From the NCBI GenBank assembly GCA_001940855.1, contig MSGS01000066.1, positions 1-64,000 on the forward strand: DNA of 64,000 nt, in the 5' to 3' direction. The translations under genes were made by a program, and so were the position numbers. Under the pieces are notes generated by a model. It was not told where the DNA came from, did no database searches, and saw nothing but the letters and a program-made list of their open reading frames with translations. The stretch is from Christensenellaceae bacterium Phil1. Lineage in GTDB: Bacteria > Bacillota > Clostridia > Christensenellales > CAG-138. Shown in pieces: positions 15,156 through 23,531 of the stretch (its first letter is position 1; every line of letters starts with the position of its first letter).

Positions 15156-16205
15156 ATGAAAAAGATATTTGCTTTTGTGCTCAGCATAATAATGGCCGCG
15201 GCGTGCATGGCCGCATGCTCCCCCTCAAACCCCGCCCCCGCGAACGATGCGGACGGCAAAACCGTAAAGGTCGGCATATGCAATTACGTTGACGATGCTT
15301 CCCTTAACCAGATTGTTGAAAACATTCAGGCCCGCCTTAAAGAGATAGGCGATGAAAAGGGCGTTGCGTTCGATGTATCCTACGACAACTGCAACGCGGA
15401 CGCGAACCTGCTTACGCAGATAATTTCAAACTTCATCGCGGACGATGTGGACATAATGATAGGCGTGGCGACGCCGGTTGCAATGGCTATGCAGGCCGCG
15501 ACAGAGGACAACGGCATTCCCGTGGTTTTCGCAGCCGTGTCCGACCCCGTGGGCGCGGGCCTTGTAGAATCAATGGAAGCGCCGGGCAGCAACGTTACCG
15601 GCACCTCGGATTATCTTGACACGGCGGCCGTTATGCAGCTCATCTCCGCCGCAGACCCGGACGTGAAGAACGTCGCCCTGCTTTACGACATTGGGCAGGA
15701 TTCCTCCACCGCCGCAATAGCCCACGCCAAGGAATATCTGGACGCCAACGGCATTGCCTACGGCGAATACACCGGCACCACCGTGGATGAGGTTACCCTT
15801 GCCGTGCAGGCGCTTATTGCGGACGGCGTGGACGCAGTGTTCACCCCCACGGATAACACCATAATGAAATCCGAGCTCAGCATATACGAAATGCTTCAGG
15901 AGGCGGGCATACCGCACTACACCGGTGCGGACTCCTTCGCACTCAACGGCGCGTTCTTAGGCTACGGCGTGGATTACGCGGCGCTGGGCGTTGAAACGGC
16001 AAACATGGCGGCAAGCATAGCGCTTGACGGCGCAAAGCCCGCGGACACGGCAGTTAAGACATTCGACAACGGCTGCGCCACCATAAACACCGAAACCTGC
16101 GAAAAGCTGGGCTTTAACTATAATGAAATATGCAAGGCGTTCGAGCCGTTCTGCACCAAGATACAGAGCATAGTTACGGCGGAAAGCTTTGACGAAGTGA
16201 AATAA
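15156..16205 (+). CDS. trpX: Tryptophan-type ABC transporter substrate-binding lipoprotein (TrpX)
   Basis: A 349-residue lipoprotein: signal peptide with lipobox MAAC (Cys at ~20), then the two-lobed periplasmic-binding fold of the ABC-substrate-binding family related to COG2984 (VKVGICNYVDDASLNQIVENI, VFAAVSDPVGAGLV, FTPTDNTIMKSE). Homologues in Bacillota are the TrpX proteins of T-box-regulated tryptophan importers. Specificity is inferred from the Trp T-box. A GAAAGGA site precedes the ATG. First cistron of trpXYZ. Confidence 0.9.
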   Translation: MKKIFAFVLSIIMAAACMAACSPSNPAPANDADGKTVKVGICNYVDDASLNQIVENIQARLKEIGDEKGVAFDVSYDNCNADANLLTQIISNFIADDVDIMIGVATPVAMAMQAATEDNGIPVVFAAVSDPVGAGLVESMEAPGSNVTGTSDYLDTAAVMQLISAADPDVKNVALLYDIGQDSSTAAIAHAKEYLDANGIAYGEYTGTTVDEVTLAVQALIADGVDAVFTPTDNTIMKSELSIYEMLQEAGIPHYTGADSFALNGAFLGYGVDYAALGVETANMAASIALDGAKPADTAVKTFDNGCATINTETCEKLGFNYNEICKAFEPFCTKIQSIVTAESFDEVK

Positions 16206-16234
16206 CGAATCCTTTAAGAAAGGCAAAGTGACAA

Positions 16235-17173
16235 ATGGGACTTGATCAGATATTGGCGCTGCTGCAAACGGCGCTTGAGCTGGGGCTTATATCCTCGCTT
16301 ACGGTGCTGGCGCTGTTTTTAAGCTATTCCATGCTTAACGTGTGCGATCTTTCCACGGACGGCTGCTTTACGCTGGGCGCCGTGGTGGGCGCGGCGGTGG
16401 CCATATCGGGACACCCGTATTTATCCATACCGGCGGCCATGCTTGCGGGCGTGGCTTCCGGCTTTATAACCGCCATACTGCAAACCAAAATGGGCGTGAA
16501 CAGCCTGCTTGCGGGCATAATAGTAAACACGGGGCTGTATTCCGTGAATATTGCCATAATGGGCGGATCGAGTATACTGAACATGAACAAGGCCGATACC
16601 GTGTTCACGGCAGTTAAGTCCGCGCTTGCAAGGATAAATATGAGCGAGCAATATAAGCTTGTCGTTGCCGCGGCGGCGGTGGTCATAATAGCGGTGCTGC
16701 TGGGGCTTTTCCTCAAAACGCGGCTTGGCCTTGCCATCCGCGCCACGGGGGACAATCCGGATATGGTGCGCTCCTCATCCATCAATCCCGTTTTCACGAC
16801 CATAATAGGCCTGTGCGTTGCCAATTCGTTCACGGCGCTTTCCGGCTGCCTGCTTGCGCAGGCGCAGAAGTCCGTGAATATAGACATCGGCGGCGGCATG
16901 GTGACCATAGCCCTTGCCTCTTTGTTGATAGGCAACGTATTCTTGGGCAAAAAGAAAATGCCGCTGAGGATAGCCGGCATGGTGCTGGGCGCGTTCGTGT
17001 TCCGCCTGGTGTATACAATAGCCCTGCGCTTCAATATGCCGGCGTTTATGCTCAAGCTTGTGTCGAGCGTAATAGTGGTTGCAGCCATATCCATACCGTA
17101 TATAAAGCAGCAGCTTCCGCTGATAAAGCGCAGGCTTGAAAGCCGCAAACGGGAGGGCAACGCCAATGCTTAA
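16235..17173 (+). CDS. trpY: ABC transporter permease (TrpY)
   Basis: A 312-residue membrane protein with eight or more hydrophobic helices of the branched-chain amino-acid/COG4120 permease type; LSYSMLNVCDLSTDG near the N-terminus and RATGDNPDMVRSSSIN (cytoplasmic coupling loop, ~165-180) are characteristic. It probably forms a homodimeric channel for the substrate delivered by TrpX. Starts 29 bp after trpX behind GAAAGG, and its end overlaps trpZ by 8 bases. Confidence 0.9.
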   Translation: MGLDQILALLQTALELGLISSLTVLALFLSYSMLNVCDLSTDGCFTLGAVVGAAVAISGHPYLSIPAAMLAGVASGFITAILQTKMGVNSLLAGIIVNTGLYSVNIAIMGGSSILNMNKADTVFTAVKSALARINMSEQYKLVVAAAAVVIIAVLLGLFLKTRLGLAIRATGDNPDMVRSSSINPVFTTIIGLCVANSFTALSGCLLAQAQKSVNIDIGGGMVTIALASLLIGNVFLGKKKMPLRIAGMVLGAFVFRLVYTIALRFNMPAFMLKLVSSVIVVAAISIPYIKQQLPLIKRRLESRKREGNANA

Positions 17174-17948
17174 AATAGACAACATTACAAAATCCTTTTC
17201 CGTCGGTACGGAAACGCGGCGCGCGCTTGACGGCGTGAGCCTGAATGTTAAAAAAGGCGACTTTATAACAATAATAGGCGCAAACGGCGCGGGGAAATCC
17301 ACCCTGTTCAACGCGATAGCCGGAAGCTTTATAACCGACAGCGGCACAATAAGCCTTGACGGGCGGGACATAACGCTTATGAGCGAATATAAGCGCGCGC
17401 ACAGCATAGGCAGGCTGTTTCAGGACCCCATGCGCGGCAGCGCGCCGGGCATGACCATTGAAGAAAACCTTGCCCTTGCCGCGGGCAGCGGAAAATGGCT
17501 CAGCCGTGTTTCTAAGCGGGACAGGGAGCTTTTCCGCGAAAAGGTATCCATGCTCGGCATGGGGCTTGAAGATAGGTTCGACCAAAGCGTGGGCGGCCTT
17601 TCCGGCGGACAAAGGCAGGCGCTTACGCTTATTATGGCAACCATAAACCCGCCAAAGCTCCTTTTGCTGGATGAGCATACGGCAGCGCTGGATCCGGGCG
17701 CGGCGGAAAAGATACTGCGCGTTACGGATTCGATAATACGCGAACATAACCTGACCTGCCTTATGATAACGCATAATATGCAGTCCGCATTGGAGCTGGG
17801 CAACCGCACCATAATGATGGACAAAGGCAAAATAGTTATGGATGTGTCCGGCGATGAGCGCGCGGCGCTTACGGTGAACGATCTTCTGCTAAGGTTTCGC
17901 GAAATATCGGGCAAGGCATTGGATAACGACAGGATGCTGCTTATATAA
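17166..17948 (+). CDS. trpZ: ABC transporter ATP-binding protein (TrpZ)
   Basis: A 260-residue ABC ATPase with Walker A GANGAGKST, signature LSGGQRQ, Walker B LLLLDEH and the switch histidine in MITHNM. It energises the TrpXY importer. The track start at 17136 is inside the permease gene; ATG 17166 begins MLKIDNITKSF, preceded by GAGGG, and overlaps the permease stop in the string ATGCTTAA, so translation is coupled. A strong terminator follows. Confidence 0.93.
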   Translation: MLKIDNITKSFSVGTETRRALDGVSLNVKKGDFITIIGANGAGKSTLFNAIAGSFITDSGTISLDGRDITLMSEYKRAHSIGRLFQDPMRGSAPGMTIEENLALAAGSGKWLSRVSKRDRELFREKVSMLGMGLEDRFDQSVGGLSGGQRQALTLIMATINPPKLLLLDEHTAALDPGAAEKILRVTDSIIREHNLTCLMITHNMQSALELGNRTIMMDKGKIVMDVSGDERAALTVNDLLLRFREISGKALDNDRMLLI

Positions 17949-18648: not shown

Positions 18649-18678
18649 TTGACAAAGTATATAAGCATACCTTATAAT
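18649..18678 (+). promoter_or_regulatory. Promoter of the hydrogenase/phosphatase cluster
   Basis: TTGACA (18649-18654), 18 bases, TATAAT (18673-18678): a full 12-of-12 consensus with slightly long spacing. It would give a leader of about 45 bases. All four downstream genes run the same way with gaps of 0-19 bp. Confidence 0.85.
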
Positions 18679-18729: not shown

Positions 18730-20238
18730 ATGGCCCTGTTATTCGATACCCATGTACAAAAAATGAAGTACAACGTGCTTAGGGAAGTTGCAAAGCTTGC
18801 CTACCGCGATGAGCTGACTCCGCAGAGAATAATGGAAATTGCCCCGCGAATAATTCCGGAAGGCAAGCCCATGTTCCGCTGCTGCATATATAAAGAGCGC
18901 GCCATTATAAACGAGCGCGTAAGCATGGCCCTTGGCGGGGAGGAGGACGGCACGGTAGTAGGCGTGCTGCCCATTGCGTGCGACGAATGCCCCGTTGACG
19001 GCATTCAGGTATCCAATGCCTGCCGCGGCTGCCTTGCGCACCGCTGCAAGGATAACTGCCCCAAGGACGCCATAAGCATAATTGACCACAAGGCTGTTAT
19101 AGACAAAGAAAAATGCATAGAATGCGGCAAGTGCCTGTCCGTTTGCCCTTATTCGGCAATAGTCAAGCACACGCGCCCCTGCGTAAATGCCTGCAAGCCG
19201 CAGGCCATACACATTGACCAAAACACAGAGAAGGCCGTTATAGACAAGGAAAAGTGCATTTCCTGCGGCGCGTGCGTGTATCAATGCCCGTTCGGCGCAA
19301 TAACCGATAAGTCCGACATAACAAAGGTAATATCCCTTATCCGCGATTCCAATTTGAACAGGGATTATCATGTTTATGCCGTGGTGGCCCCCAGCATGGC
19401 CAGCCAATATCCCAACGCCGTGCCGGAGCAGGTGGTTGCCGGCATAAAGGCGCTGGGCTTCCATGCGGTGGTTGAGGCCGCGTGGGGCGCGGATATGGTG
19501 GCGTGGCTTGAAGCGCAGGAGCTTGTTGAAAAAGGGTTCCTCACGTCCTCCTGCTGCCCGGCGTTCGTGAATTATATAAACCGCCATTTCCCATCGCTCA
19601 AGGAGCATGTGTCCCACAATCTTTCCCCCATGGCGCAGATGGCAAAATGGCTGCACGAAACGGACGAAAACTGCCACGTTGTATTCATCGGGCCCTGCAT
19701 AGCCAAAAAGGCCGAAACCAAGTATACCGACGCGGGCAGGTACGTTGACTATACCATAACGTTTGAAGAGATGCAGGCCATGTTCTCCGCCCGCGGAATA
19801 GACGTGACCACAATGCACAAGGCGGAGCTTGACAATGCATCCTTCTACGGGCGCATATTCGCCCGCTGCGGCGGATTGGCGGAGGCCGTGACCGAGGCGC
19901 TCAAGGAGCAGGGCGTGAGCGATGAGCAGTTCAAGCTCAATGCGGTATCCTGCAACGGCATTGCGGAATGCAAAACCGCCCTTTTCAAAAAGCAGAAGGG
20001 CATACTGAAGGAAAACTTTATTGAGGGCATGGCGTGCGTAAACGGCTGCATAGGCGGCCCGGCGTGCCTGAGCCACAGCTCCAAAAACTTCGCGCAGGTT
20101 GACGCATACGGCAAATCCTCAATGGAAAATACCATCGCGGACGCCATAAGGGTTATGCAGATACTCAACCCCGCCCTTGACGTGAAGGGCGACGGCGAGG
20201 TTGAAAAGGAAATAGAAGAAATAGAACATACAAAATAA
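18730..20238 (+). CDS. [FeFe]-hydrogenase, group-B-like, with multiple ferredoxin clusters
   Basis: A 502-residue protein. Cysteine-rich N-terminal half: CDECP...CRGCLAHRC, CIECGKCLSVCP, CVNAC and CISCGACVYQCP, giving several [4Fe-4S] clusters. The C-terminal half bears the three H-cluster motifs: TSSCCPAFVNY (L1), GPCIAKKAE (L2) and EGMACVNGCIGGP (L3). This motif set matches group B rather than the bifurcating or energy-conserving group A. It should evolve or oxidise H2 with ferredoxin; group B enzymes are little studied. ATG 18730 has AAAGGAG 6 bases upstream; the track start at 18649 lies in the promoter. Maturases HydEFG are not in the window. Confidence 0.85.
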   Translation: MALLFDTHVQKMKYNVLREVAKLAYRDELTPQRIMEIAPRIIPEGKPMFRCCIYKERAIINERVSMALGGEEDGTVVGVLPIACDECPVDGIQVSNACRGCLAHRCKDNCPKDAISIIDHKAVIDKEKCIECGKCLSVCPYSAIVKHTRPCVNACKPQAIHIDQNTEKAVIDKEKCISCGACVYQCPFGAITDKSDITKVISLIRDSNLNRDYHVYAVVAPSMASQYPNAVPEQVVAGIKALGFHAVVEAAWGADMVAWLEAQELVEKGFLTSSCCPAFVNYINRHFPSLKEHVSHNLSPMAQMAKWLHETDENCHVVFIGPCIAKKAETKYTDAGRYVDYTITFEEMQAMFSARGIDVTTMHKAELDNASFYGRIFARCGGLAEAVTEALKEQGVSDEQFKLNAVSCNGIAECKTALFKKQKGILKENFIEGMACVNGCIGGPACLSHSSKNFAQVDAYGKSSMENTIADAIRVMQILNPALDVKGDGEVEKEIEEIEHTK

Positions 20239-20257
20239 ATAAGCCGGAGGAACAGCG

Positions 20258-20506
20258 ATGATAACCGTATCCGTATGCATTGGCAGCGCATGCCATAAAA
20301 GAGGCTCCTACGCCATACTGAACCGCTTTAAGCAGCTTGTGCAGCAGCACGGCGCAGAGGACAAGGTGAACGTTGCGCCCGTGTTCTGCCTGGGCGAATG
20401 CGCAAACGGCGTATCCGTAAGGATAGACGATCAGCTTGTGCTTGGCATGTGCGAAGATAACGTGGACGCAACATGGGAGCAGCTTGTGCTGCCGCGCATA
20501 GGATAA
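20258..20506 (+). CDS. Thioredoxin-like [2Fe-2S] ferredoxin (NuoE/HydC type)
   Basis: An 82-residue stand-alone thioredoxin-like ferredoxin: CIGSAC-x~30-CLGECANG supplies four cysteines with the spacing of NuoE-type [2Fe-2S] domains. It probably carries electrons to or from one of the two flanking H-cluster proteins. CCGGAGGAA precedes the ATG; it lies 19 bp after the hydrogenase gene and 15 bp before the HydS-like gene. Similar small proteins accompany hydrogenase-linked signalling genes in other Clostridia and Thermotoga. Confidence 0.85.
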   Translation: MITVSVCIGSACHKRGSYAILNRFKQLVQQHGAEDKVNVAPVFCLGECANGVSVRIDDQLVLGMCEDNVDATWEQLVLPRIG

Positions 20507-20521
20507 GCGGGTAACACGGCA

Positions 20522-22195
20522 ATGGGTATACTTCAGTTTGAAAGCGTAAACTGCAAGGATTGCTGCAAATGCATAGGCGTATGCCCCGTTAAGGCGATAG
20601 AGGTCAAAAACCACCGCGCCATGATAGTTGAGCGGGACTGCATACTGTGCGGAAACTGCACGATAGCCTGCCCGCAGCATACAAAGCACGGCACTGATGA
20701 ATCCGCCTCTGTAAAGGAGCTTATACGCTCCGGCAGGAAGGTGATTGCAAGCGTTGCGCCTTCCTACGCTGCGTATTTTGACGGCTGCGGCTTTGAAGCG
20801 CTGCGCACCGCGCTGAAGGCATTAGGCTTTTATGATGCGCGGGAAACAGCCGAGGGCGCATATATAGTAAAAAGCGAATACGAAAAGCTTATTGCTAACG
20901 GCATAAAAAAGCCGGTGATATCATCCTGCTGCACAACGCTTAATCTTTATATTCAGAAGCATTATCCGGACGCGATAGGGCTGCTGGCCCCCGTGCTTAC
21001 GCCCATGCAGGCGCATGCGAGGGTGATACACCGCGATGAACCCGGCGCGGCGGTGGTTTTCATAGGTCCCTGCATATCCAAAAAGGCCGAGTGTGAGCAG
21101 GAAGAGAGCGAACTCGAATACGCAATAACGTTCGATGAATTGGACGACTGGCTTGGCGAAGCGAAGATAACCATTATGCCCGCAGCGGAGAGCGAGCAGC
21201 GGCTTTCGCGCTTTTTCCCCGTGTCCGGCGGCATACTGAAAACCATGACGCAGCAGAGCGGCGTGAACTACGTTGCCGTGGACGGGCCGGAAGGCTGCAT
21301 GGCTGCCGTTAAGGACGCGATGGCGGGCAAGCTTGACGGCTGCTTTATAGAGATGAGCTTTTGCCAGGGCTCCTGCGTAGGCGGGCCGGTTTTCCGCAAC
21401 GTTAACCGCTCCGCCGCGGCAAGCTACGTTAAAGTGGCGCACGATGCCGCGGGAGAGGCGGACTTTGACATTGCGCCCGCGCCGGACATGGAGGCGCACT
21501 TTAAGAACAGCCGCACATATTATATGCAGCCCACCGAAAAGCAGATAGCCGCCGTGTTCAAAAAAATGGGCAAGGAAGGGCCGGAGGATGAACTGAACTG
21601 CGGCATGTGCGGCTACGCATCCTGCCGCGATAAGGCCATTGCCGTAATAATGGGCCGCGCGGAAATAACCATGTGCATGCCGTATATGAAAAAGCGCGCG
21701 GAGTCATTCTCGGACAAAATACTCAGTATTACTCCGGACGCTATACTGGCCGTGGACATGGATCTTCGCGTGCAGCAGATAAACAACGCCGCGTGCGAAA
21801 TGTTCGGCGTGCAGCCAAGCGATATAGTGGGCCAAAGCGTGAGCGCGCTGGTGGATGAGTTCGACTTTGTTGACCTTATTTCAAGCGGGGAAGCCGCAAA
21901 GGAAAAGTTCACGTATTTGGCGGAATATAACCTTTATCTCAAGCAGTCGCTTTACTACGACGCTTCAAGCGGCATAGTTATATGCATAATGAAGAACATA
22001 ACCCGCGAAAAGCAGCGGCAGAATATGGTAATGCGGCACAAAACGCAGGTTGCCGGCATGGCGGACGACATTGTGGATAAGCAGCTTAGAATAGTGCACG
22101 AAATAGCGTCACTCCTTGGCGAATCTGCCGCGGAAACAAAGGTTGCCATATCCAAGCTGAAGGAAGCCGTTATGATGGAGAACGAGGAGCAGTAA
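20522..22195 (+). CDS. hydS: HydS-like H-cluster sensor with Fe-S and PAS domains (group C [FeFe] hydrogenase)
   Basis: 557 residues. Two [4Fe-4S] motifs (CKDCCKCIGVCP, CILCGNCTIACP) lead into an H-cluster domain with SSCCTTLNLY, GPCISKKAE and EMSFCQGSCVGGP; the cysteines of all three are kept although L1 lacks the usual proline. Next come a CGMCGYASC...C Fe-S domain (~360-395), a PAS domain (~400-500, ILAVDMDLRVQQIN) and a C-terminal helical segment. This architecture is that of proposed H2-sensing hydrogenases. There is no kinase domain; the PP2C phosphatase gene begins at the very next base, suggesting direct coupling. Regulatory role is inferred. Confidence 0.87.
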   Translation: MGILQFESVNCKDCCKCIGVCPVKAIEVKNHRAMIVERDCILCGNCTIACPQHTKHGTDESASVKELIRSGRKVIASVAPSYAAYFDGCGFEALRTALKALGFYDARETAEGAYIVKSEYEKLIANGIKKPVISSCCTTLNLYIQKHYPDAIGLLAPVLTPMQAHARVIHRDEPGAAVVFIGPCISKKAECEQEESELEYAITFDELDDWLGEAKITIMPAAESEQRLSRFFPVSGGILKTMTQQSGVNYVAVDGPEGCMAAVKDAMAGKLDGCFIEMSFCQGSCVGGPVFRNVNRSAAASYVKVAHDAAGEADFDIAPAPDMEAHFKNSRTYYMQPTEKQIAAVFKKMGKEGPEDELNCGMCGYASCRDKAIAVIMGRAEITMCMPYMKKRAESFSDKILSITPDAILAVDMDLRVQQINNAACEMFGVQPSDIVGQSVSALVDEFDFVDLISSGEAAKEKFTYLAEYNLYLKQSLYYDASSGIVICIMKNITREKQRQNMVMRHKTQVAGMADDIVDKQLRIVHEIASLLGESAAETKVAISKLKEAVMMENEEQ

Positions 22196-23356
22196 ATGGT
22201 CGATCTGTTCATAGAAAGCGGCCATGCCAGCATAAATAAGCACGATGAAACGCTATGCGGGGATTCGTATTCAATAAAGAAAAACGGGGAGCAGCTCGTT
22301 GCCGTGCTGAGCGACGGGCTTGGCAGCGGCGTTAAGGCGAACATACTTTCAACGCTGACCGCGAACATGCTTTCCACAATGATGCTGAACCGCCTGCCCA
22401 TTGACGAATGCATAGAAACCGTTGCAAGCACGCTGCCCATGTGCCGCGAAAGGAAGCTTGCGTATTCAACGTTCACTCTCGCCTGCTTTACGGATTCCAC
22501 CGTGCGCCTTGTGCAGTACGATAATCCGGACGCGGTGCTGCTGAGGAACGGCAAAAACTATGCCTACGACACAGGCATACACTTCATAGGCGAAAAGAAG
22601 ATATGCGAAAGCACTATAAGCCTTATGGAAAACGACATGCTGGTGCTGATGACGGACGGTATAACAAACGCCGGCATAGGCAAGCTTTCGCCGGGCGGCT
22701 GGAAGCGCGAGGAGGTAATAGAATTTCTTGAACGCTGGTACACGCCGGACATATCGCCCCAAAACCTGGCCGCAAGGCTGGTGGAGGCGGGGAACGTGCT
22801 GTGCATGGATTCAAACGACGACGATATGACCGCGCTTGTGTTCAAGGTGCGCCCGCGCCGGGCCATAAACGTTATGATAGGCCCGCCTGCCGACCCCAAG
22901 GACGACGCGCGCGTGCTGAAGCTTTTCTTTGCAAAAGAGGGCAGCCATATATGCTGCGGCGGCTCCACGGCGCATATGATAAGCCGCTATCTGAATAAGC
23001 CCATAATACCCGTGGAGGACAGCGGAACCGATAAGGTGCCCGCCATAGCCACCATAGACGGCATGGACTTGGTCACGGAGGGCATAATAACGCTTCAGCA
23101 GGTGGCGGACCTTGCGGAGCAGTACGTTTCCGACAACAGGCTGAGCATAACCATAAACAGCGGAAACGACGGCGTATCGCTGCTGTGCGCATATCTTTTT
23201 GAGCAGGCTACGGACATAAACTTCTTCTTCGGCAAGGCGGAAAACACCGCCAATGACGACCTTGACATAGGCATGGACGCGAAGGCGATAGTAATCAACC
23301 GCCTTATAAGCAGCCTTAGAGAGATGGGCAAAAACGTGAAAATAAGCCGCTGCTGA
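22196..23356 (+). CDS. SpoIIE-type PP2C serine/threonine phosphatase
   Basis: 386 residues. The first ~220 form a PP2C/SpoIIE fold with metal aspartates in CGDSYS, VLSDGLGSG, MTDGITNAG and DDMTALVFK. The remaining ~165 residues (from RRAINVMIGPP) are a separate domain I cannot name, containing CCGGSTAHMISRYL. The ATG follows the hydS-like stop directly, so expression is tightly coupled. It would dephosphorylate a serine/threonine-phosphorylated partner, for example an anti-anti-sigma factor, in response to the sensor; no such partner is encoded nearby. Confidence 0.85.
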   Translation: MVDLFIESGHASINKHDETLCGDSYSIKKNGEQLVAVLSDGLGSGVKANILSTLTANMLSTMMLNRLPIDECIETVASTLPMCRERKLAYSTFTLACFTDSTVRLVQYDNPDAVLLRNGKNYAYDTGIHFIGEKKICESTISLMENDMLVLMTDGITNAGIGKLSPGGWKREEVIEFLERWYTPDISPQNLAARLVEAGNVLCMDSNDDDMTALVFKVRPRRAINVMIGPPADPKDDARVLKLFFAKEGSHICCGGSTAHMISRYLNKPIIPVEDSGTDKVPAIATIDGMDLVTEGIITLQQVADLAEQYVSDNRLSITINSGNDGVSLLCAYLFEQATDINFFFGKAENTANDDLDIGMDAKAIVINRLISSLREMGKNVKISRC

Positions 23357-23368
23357 CGCGGTGATGTA

Positions 23369-23402
23369 AAAACGGCTCGGGAGGCTTTCCCCGGGCCGTT
23401 TT
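23369..23402 (+). terminator. Terminator of the hydrogenase/phosphatase cluster
   Basis: AAAACGGCTCGGG, 8-base loop, CCCGGGCCGTTTT, a 13-bp stem (one wobble) ending in a T-run, 12 bp after the phosphatase stop. The remaining 130 bases up to the next gene show nothing else. Confidence 0.9.
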
Positions 23403-23531
23403 ATGCCGTGCTGTAATTTAAGCGGGCCAATTAGAACCGATGGATTGAAGCTATGTTAACAGACCGTTCATGGCAGCGGGAGGAAGAATGAGGCAAAGCG
23501 GCGGAGCCCTTTTGCATTCCCGGAATAAGGG

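Follow-up and report, generated by a model that had tools for sequence, protein, structure and literature searches.

Do four closely spaced genes in the genome of Christensenellaceae bacterium Phil1, encoding a catalytic [FeFe] hydrogenase, a small [2Fe-2S] protein, a sensory hydrogenase and a phosphatase, form one H2-responsive circuit, and through what output would it act? A preliminary description of the locus proposed a single circuit of both hydrogenases that ends in dephosphorylation by the phosphatase. The genes lie at positions 18730-23356 of the window, i.e. the whole 64,000-nucleotide stretch of DNA that was analysed, and the features discussed here are the following (basis of assignment in brackets):

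18649..18678, + strand: sigma-70-type promoter match, TTGACA-18-TATAAT, 12/12 (consensus match only)
18730..20238, + strand: group B [FeFe] hydrogenase gene (HfsD/HydA2-like), 502 aa (family models, TIGR04105 above cut-off, tree)
20258..20506, + strand: gene for a stand-alone thioredoxin-like [2Fe-2S] protein, 82 aa (PF01257)
20522..22195, + strand: HydS gene, stand-alone sensory group C [FeFe] hydrogenase, 557 aa (domain models, tree)
20738..21388, + strand: H-cluster domain of HydS, PF02906 (domain model, alignment)
21593..21682, + strand: C-terminal [4Fe-4S] domain of HydS, PF04060 (domain model, alignment)
21719..21904, + strand: PAS domain of HydS (domain model)
22073..22162, + strand: conserved C-terminal tail of HydS, KQxRxVxEIASLLGExxAETKxAxxxLK (alignment of relatives)
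22196..23356, + strand: HfsC-like SpoIIE-family PPM phosphatase gene, 386 aa (domain and structural models)
22847..23353, + strand: unclassified C-terminal domain of the phosphatase, about 165 aa (profile, model searches, alignment)
about 23370..23403, + strand: G+C-rich terminator-like hairpin followed by a T run, at the operon end (consensus only)

The four genes and their products

The genes are as tightly packed as first described, with intergenic gaps of 19, 15 and 0 bp, the phosphatase ATG starting at the base right after the HydS stop codon. For the group B hydrogenase we chose the ATG at 18730, preceded by GGAG; the longest frame begins with a TTG at 18649, inside the promoter. The promoter and terminator named in the preliminary description were both found, the former matching at 12 of 12 positions and the latter as a hairpin with a T run, but in the whole scan neither promoter-like nor terminator-like sites showed a clear excess over shuffles, so that no site except the perfect promoter match is notable. 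Upstream of the operon, at 15156-17948, are genes that, judged by sequence, encode an ABC importer (substrate-binding protein, permease and ATPase).

The first protein matches TIGR04105 (FeFe_hydrog_B1) with 541 bits, above the curated cut-off of 450, contains ferredoxin domains and carries the H-cluster motifs TSSCCPAF, GPCIAKK and EGMACVNGC. In a midpoint-rooted tree of 88 hydrogenase sequences taken from this genome and related ones, with groups labelled by architecture and the HydS references from T. maritima, R. albus and Thermoanaerobacterium left out, it falls within the group B clade of 25 rows (support 100), where row A_L048 is a long group B frame. The second protein corresponds to the second half of PF01257 (34.5 bits, cut-off 24.8). 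As the genome encodes HydF and HydG, the cell should be able to make H-clusters.

HydS comprises an H-cluster domain, a [4Fe-4S] domain and a PAS domain, and the domain models detect no kinase or output domain in it. The cysteines of the H-cluster (C137, C184, C281, C285) and of the C-terminal cluster (360, 363, 368, 385) are invariant across 47 HydS proteins, and the conserved tail is a candidate docking helix for the phosphatase. In the tree HydS joins kinase- and activator-fused forms in a group C branch (support 94) apart from groups A and B, while group D is separate (support 100). The assignments of the two hydrogenases to groups B and C thus stand, on the curated model and the tree. That the same sensory core is fused in other genomes to a histidine kinase or to a sigma-54 activator is what would be expected of a signal-input module. 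In two loci (L168:1916-4234 and L170:2606-5287) the sensory-type hydrogenase carries, in the same protein, a sigma-54 activator part (AAA+) and a helix-turn-helix domain for DNA binding, by architecture a putative direct H2-sensor transcription factor; the histidine kinase fusion is found in L172.

Loss of the proton-relay cysteine near the H-cluster is common in sensory group C enzymes but not universal, so it does not strictly define them. The position is a cysteine in 17% of sensory sequences (PMC10055695), and it is kept in the HydS of the window (C136), as well as in 37 of 47 relatives; HydS may therefore turn over H2 faster than assumed.

The fourth protein matches the SpoIIE model (PF07228, 69 bits) over residues 31-218, and the structure model of the full-length protein also matches SpoIIE. 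Its PPM metal residues (D23, D40, D154, D209, D210) are intact and invariant. The "PP2C phosphatase" starting at the next base is real, and is more exactly a PPM/PP2C family member of the SpoIIE branch.

Relation to known hydrogenase operons

All four kinds of genes recur, judging by annotation, in the hfsABCD operon of Thermoanaerobacterium, which encodes the HydS-like HfsB with a PAS domain, the serine phosphatase HfsC and the ferredoxin-linked hydrogenase HfsD, similar to HydA2 of R. albus (PMC5707799, PMC11837493). The published description of HfsA is that of a poorly alignable protein (PMC5707799, PMC11837493); we infer from its position that the [2Fe-2S] gene of the window is the counterpart of hfsA, since it occupies the HfsA place in the common Trx-HydS-SpoIIE-group B order. 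The genes of the window run D-A-B-C as opposed to A-B-C-D, and the cluster is an hfsABCD-type operon in permuted order. In Thermoanaerobacterium, deletion of hfsA or hfsB increases ethanol production and raises adhE transcripts two- to threefold, whereas deletion of hfsC or hfsD causes no such rise (PMC5707799).

In terms of the HydDB classification the locus resembles class C3, putatively phosphatase-linked, whose members "may sense H2 and regulate processes via serine/threonine phosphatases" (PMC5037454): a sensory-type hydrogenase lies beside a serine/threonine phosphatase gene, an assignment that we made by architecture, neighbourhood and tree. A PAS-containing sensory hydrogenase, a phosphatase and a ferredoxin-dependent hydrogenase are found together also in R. 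albus, in a co-regulated cluster of HydA2, HydS, phosphatase and alcohol dehydrogenase that is strongly down-regulated at low H2, and whose catalytic enzyme has been labelled group A1 (PMC6776011). In contrast to that cluster, the window has no alcohol dehydrogenase, which is present in the commonest order among its relatives. A circuit of this general kind has thus been already proposed (PMC5037454, PMC6776011, PMC5707799, PMC11837493).

We consider it probable that the locus works as an hfs-type operon, in which the group B enzyme produces H2 and HydS senses H2 or redox state and acts via the phosphatase to control fermentation; the H2 signal, the contact between the proteins, the direction of control and the substrate are the parts that we infer. 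The group B enzyme would make H2 from reduced ferredoxin, and HydS would be a slow sensory hydrogenase whose H-cluster responds to H2 or redox state, and from which the signal would travel through the C-terminal [4Fe-4S] domain, the PAS domain and the conserved tail until it reaches the SpoIIE-family phosphatase translated along with HydS. The phosphatase would act on a target protein, probably not a STAS anti-sigma antagonist, which in its dephosphorylated form would adjust how strongly fermentation enzymes, among them the neighbouring hydrogenase, are expressed or how active they are. To our knowledge, no group C enzyme has so far been shown to sense H2 in a cell. The sensory role of group C [FeFe] hydrogenases is termed putative (PMC8924675), and the sensor-phosphatase model is further weakened by the retention of C136 in HydS, by the ethanol phenotype that hfsD alone restores in T. 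thermosaccharolyticum (see below) and by the lack of any visible kinase or phosphatase substrate gene near the operon.

The sensor and the phosphatase as a unit

The survey of neighbourhoods covered 48 loci: that of the window, a paralogous one from the same genome, 45 from relatives in the family and order, and one from an Oscillospiraceae contig. HydS is directly upstream of the phosphatase in all 48, even where a contig end cuts HydS (L071), and in most of them the spacing of the two frames is -23 to +4 bp, so that they usually touch or share bases. The full order seen most often runs AdhE-like, APH-like, [2Fe-2S], HydS, phosphatase and group B hydrogenase, with the [2Fe-2S] protein present in 35 neighbourhoods. 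The hydrogenase-first order of the window recurs only in L046-L048 and is a minority rearrangement. Of the two results that the preliminary description named as refuting, class models placing both proteins outside groups B and C or a gene order that is not conserved, neither was obtained. The AdhE-like genes in many of the relatives' clusters were identified by sequence and by the R. albus precedent. An APH/choline-kinase-like gene lies between AdhE or Rex and HydS in L006 (5519-6262) and 13 relatives, with the catalytic HGD and DW motifs intact in most of them and degenerate in the copy of this genome. As an antagonist kinase this gene was rejected, as it is found in 14 of the 48 loci, is absent from the cluster of the window and is degenerate in the paralogous one.

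The pairing extends throughout the phylum. The C-terminal domain of the phosphatase has profile matches in 122 of 399 genomes, and HydS is directly upstream in 138 of the 145 matches that could be placed, 124 by coordinates, with three HydS candidates scored per genome, and 14 on inspection by hand of 19 of the 21 remaining loci. The other five inspected loci comprise an orphan phosphatase, a truncated gene (L154) and three stand-alone domains. Conversely, the phosphatase adjoins 124 of 129 stand-alone HydS matches. The orphan (L142:4587-5726) is a copy of the HydS-linked phosphatase whose LCGD and DGLGSG motifs are damaged, with HydS absent nearby. The stand-alone domains (L122:5623-6102, L123:5599-6075 and L157 near 6945; 156-159 aa) come from one genus and are located between two HydCBA operons. 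The sole match among contigs classed as viral (L159) is a HydA-HydS-phosphatase arrangement with a large serine recombinase next to it, and represents the host flank of a mobile element.

The catalytic hydrogenase, on the other hand, is exchangeable. It belongs to group B in 27 of the 48 loci and to the A3 type (HydCBA) in 11, and none is visible in 10; this genome has both kinds, group B in the window and HydS-phosphatase-HydC-HydB-HydA on contig C9. Mapped onto the tree of the phosphatases, the group B label requires 11 changes (8 forced by well-supported branches) and the A3 label 8 (7 forced), counts to which contig ends add noise. Across the 26 loci with group B neighbours, the correlation of pairwise divergence is 0.92 between HydS and the phosphatase and 0.57 between HydS and the group B hydrogenase; both values are uncorrected for shared phylogeny, but they are contrasted within one set of loci. 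The pairing, the co-divergence and the swapping of the catalytic partner together indicate that the unit is the nearly inseparable sensor-phosphatase pair. The obligate pairing is supported, and the single fixed circuit of catalytic and sensory hydrogenases, as first stated, is not.

The same data bear on a reading in which HydS acts directly on the group B hydrogenase or the pool of ferredoxin, serving either as an electron sink or as a subunit of an Fe-S complex with the [2Fe-2S] protein, leaving the phosphatase as a side branch. In T. thermosaccharolyticum lacking hfsABCD, hfsD alone restores high ethanol (PMC11837493), a phenotype that thus does not require the phosphatase; the retained proton-relay cysteine and the presence of the [2Fe-2S] protein alongside HydS in most loci point the same way. 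We regard this reading as unlikely, given that HydS co-diverges with the phosphatase and not with the group B enzyme, and that loci differ in their catalytic partner or show none in the vicinity.

The output and the C-terminal domain of the phosphatase

If signalling through the phosphatase is the main route, as we favour, the next question is what it acts on. The SpoIIE-family catalytic domain suggests canonical partner switching, in which a STAS anti-sigma antagonist would be dephosphorylated and a sigma factor set free, as by SpoIIE and RsbU; phosphatases of this family usually act on STAS proteins (PMC11418112). The enzyme of the window shares with SpoIIE and RsbU the catalytic fold and the metal residues, but it has no N-terminal sensor or membrane part, possesses a distinct C-terminal domain and lacks a dedicated STAS partner gene. 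The sole STAS protein and the sole RsbW-type protein above the cut-off in the genome are encoded next to each other and to a sigma factor, i.e. they are spoIIAA-spoIIAB-sigF, beyond which no dedicated STAS antagonist and anti-sigma partner was found in the genome. Among 60 genomes carrying the HydS-phosphatase pair, 44 have exactly one STAS match; in three drafts of 90-94% completeness there is either none (G035) or a single one inside a frame of about 550-560 aa, the size of a sulfate transporter (G011, G032). That spoIIAA-spoIIAB-sigF is the only such set here, and that some relatives with the pair, the three drafts just named, have no stand-alone STAS protein, argues against an output of the SpoIIE/RsbU type, and we judge partner switching improbable. 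Dephosphorylation as such remains a plausible, putative output.

Three eukaryote-type kinases are encoded in the genome, none of them close to the operon. The RsbW-like gene of some relatives was discarded as the missing kinase, as it belongs to a separate cluster with a group D-like hydrogenase and the window's genome has no second gene of this type. In those clusters (L160-L164), HydCBA is accompanied by genes for a [FeFe] hydrogenase resembling group D (427-439 aa), for an ATPase similar to RsbW and for DRTGG-type and PHP-type proteins (both named by sequence); group D has a kinase-like neighbour where group C3 has a phosphatase.

The C-terminal domain, the most original part of the preliminary description, has proved to be as unassigned as stated there. 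No domain model scores above the cut-off on residues ~220-386 of the phosphatase; comparison with NCBIfam gave no convincing match, and with Pfam weak ones below the cut-off, among them PrpR_N, which was not accepted as a homologue. Neither was 3trj, the sole PDB profile match (E=0.019). The motifs GPP, CGG[ST]T, GxDLVTEG and GxAxN are invariant or nearly so, and the domain is conserved and practically confined to hydrogenase loci. An AlphaFold2 model from a three-sequence alignment (mean pLDDT 78) exhibits an alpha/beta sandwich, whose best PDB matches are methylglyoxal synthases (E 0.003, TM about 0.4-0.5); this weak match is suggestive, but no proof, of a ligand-binding Rossmann-like fold. 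Most likely, the domain is a receiver or ligand-binding module.

The phosphatase might then answer mainly to a metabolite bound by this domain, with HydS as a modulator and H2 not the principal signal. The conserved motifs, the existence of the domain on its own beside hydrogenase operons and the Rossmann-like model agree with this, the methylglyoxal synthase-like fold being also used by carbamoyl phosphate synthetase for the control domain that binds IMP. Yet the structural matches are weak and there is no candidate ligand to name, and we find this reading rather unlikely compared with control by HydS, in which the domain would receive the sensor's signal or a ligand.

Two points remain as new, a hydrogenase-linked domain that is uncharacterised and an output that apparently does not involve STAS proteins. 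It is possible, although we hold it only tentatively, that the domain founds a new signal-receiver or ligand-binding family tied to [FeFe] hydrogenases, and that H2-sensing phosphatases work by means other than STAS partner switching; if so, they would represent a distinct route of bacterial phosphosignalling. The survey identifies two proteins as the conserved unit, speaks against STAS proteins as the default output and singles out one domain that is uncharacterised. H2 sensing and the switching of fermentation products in anaerobes bear on rumen methane, gut gas and biofuel strains.
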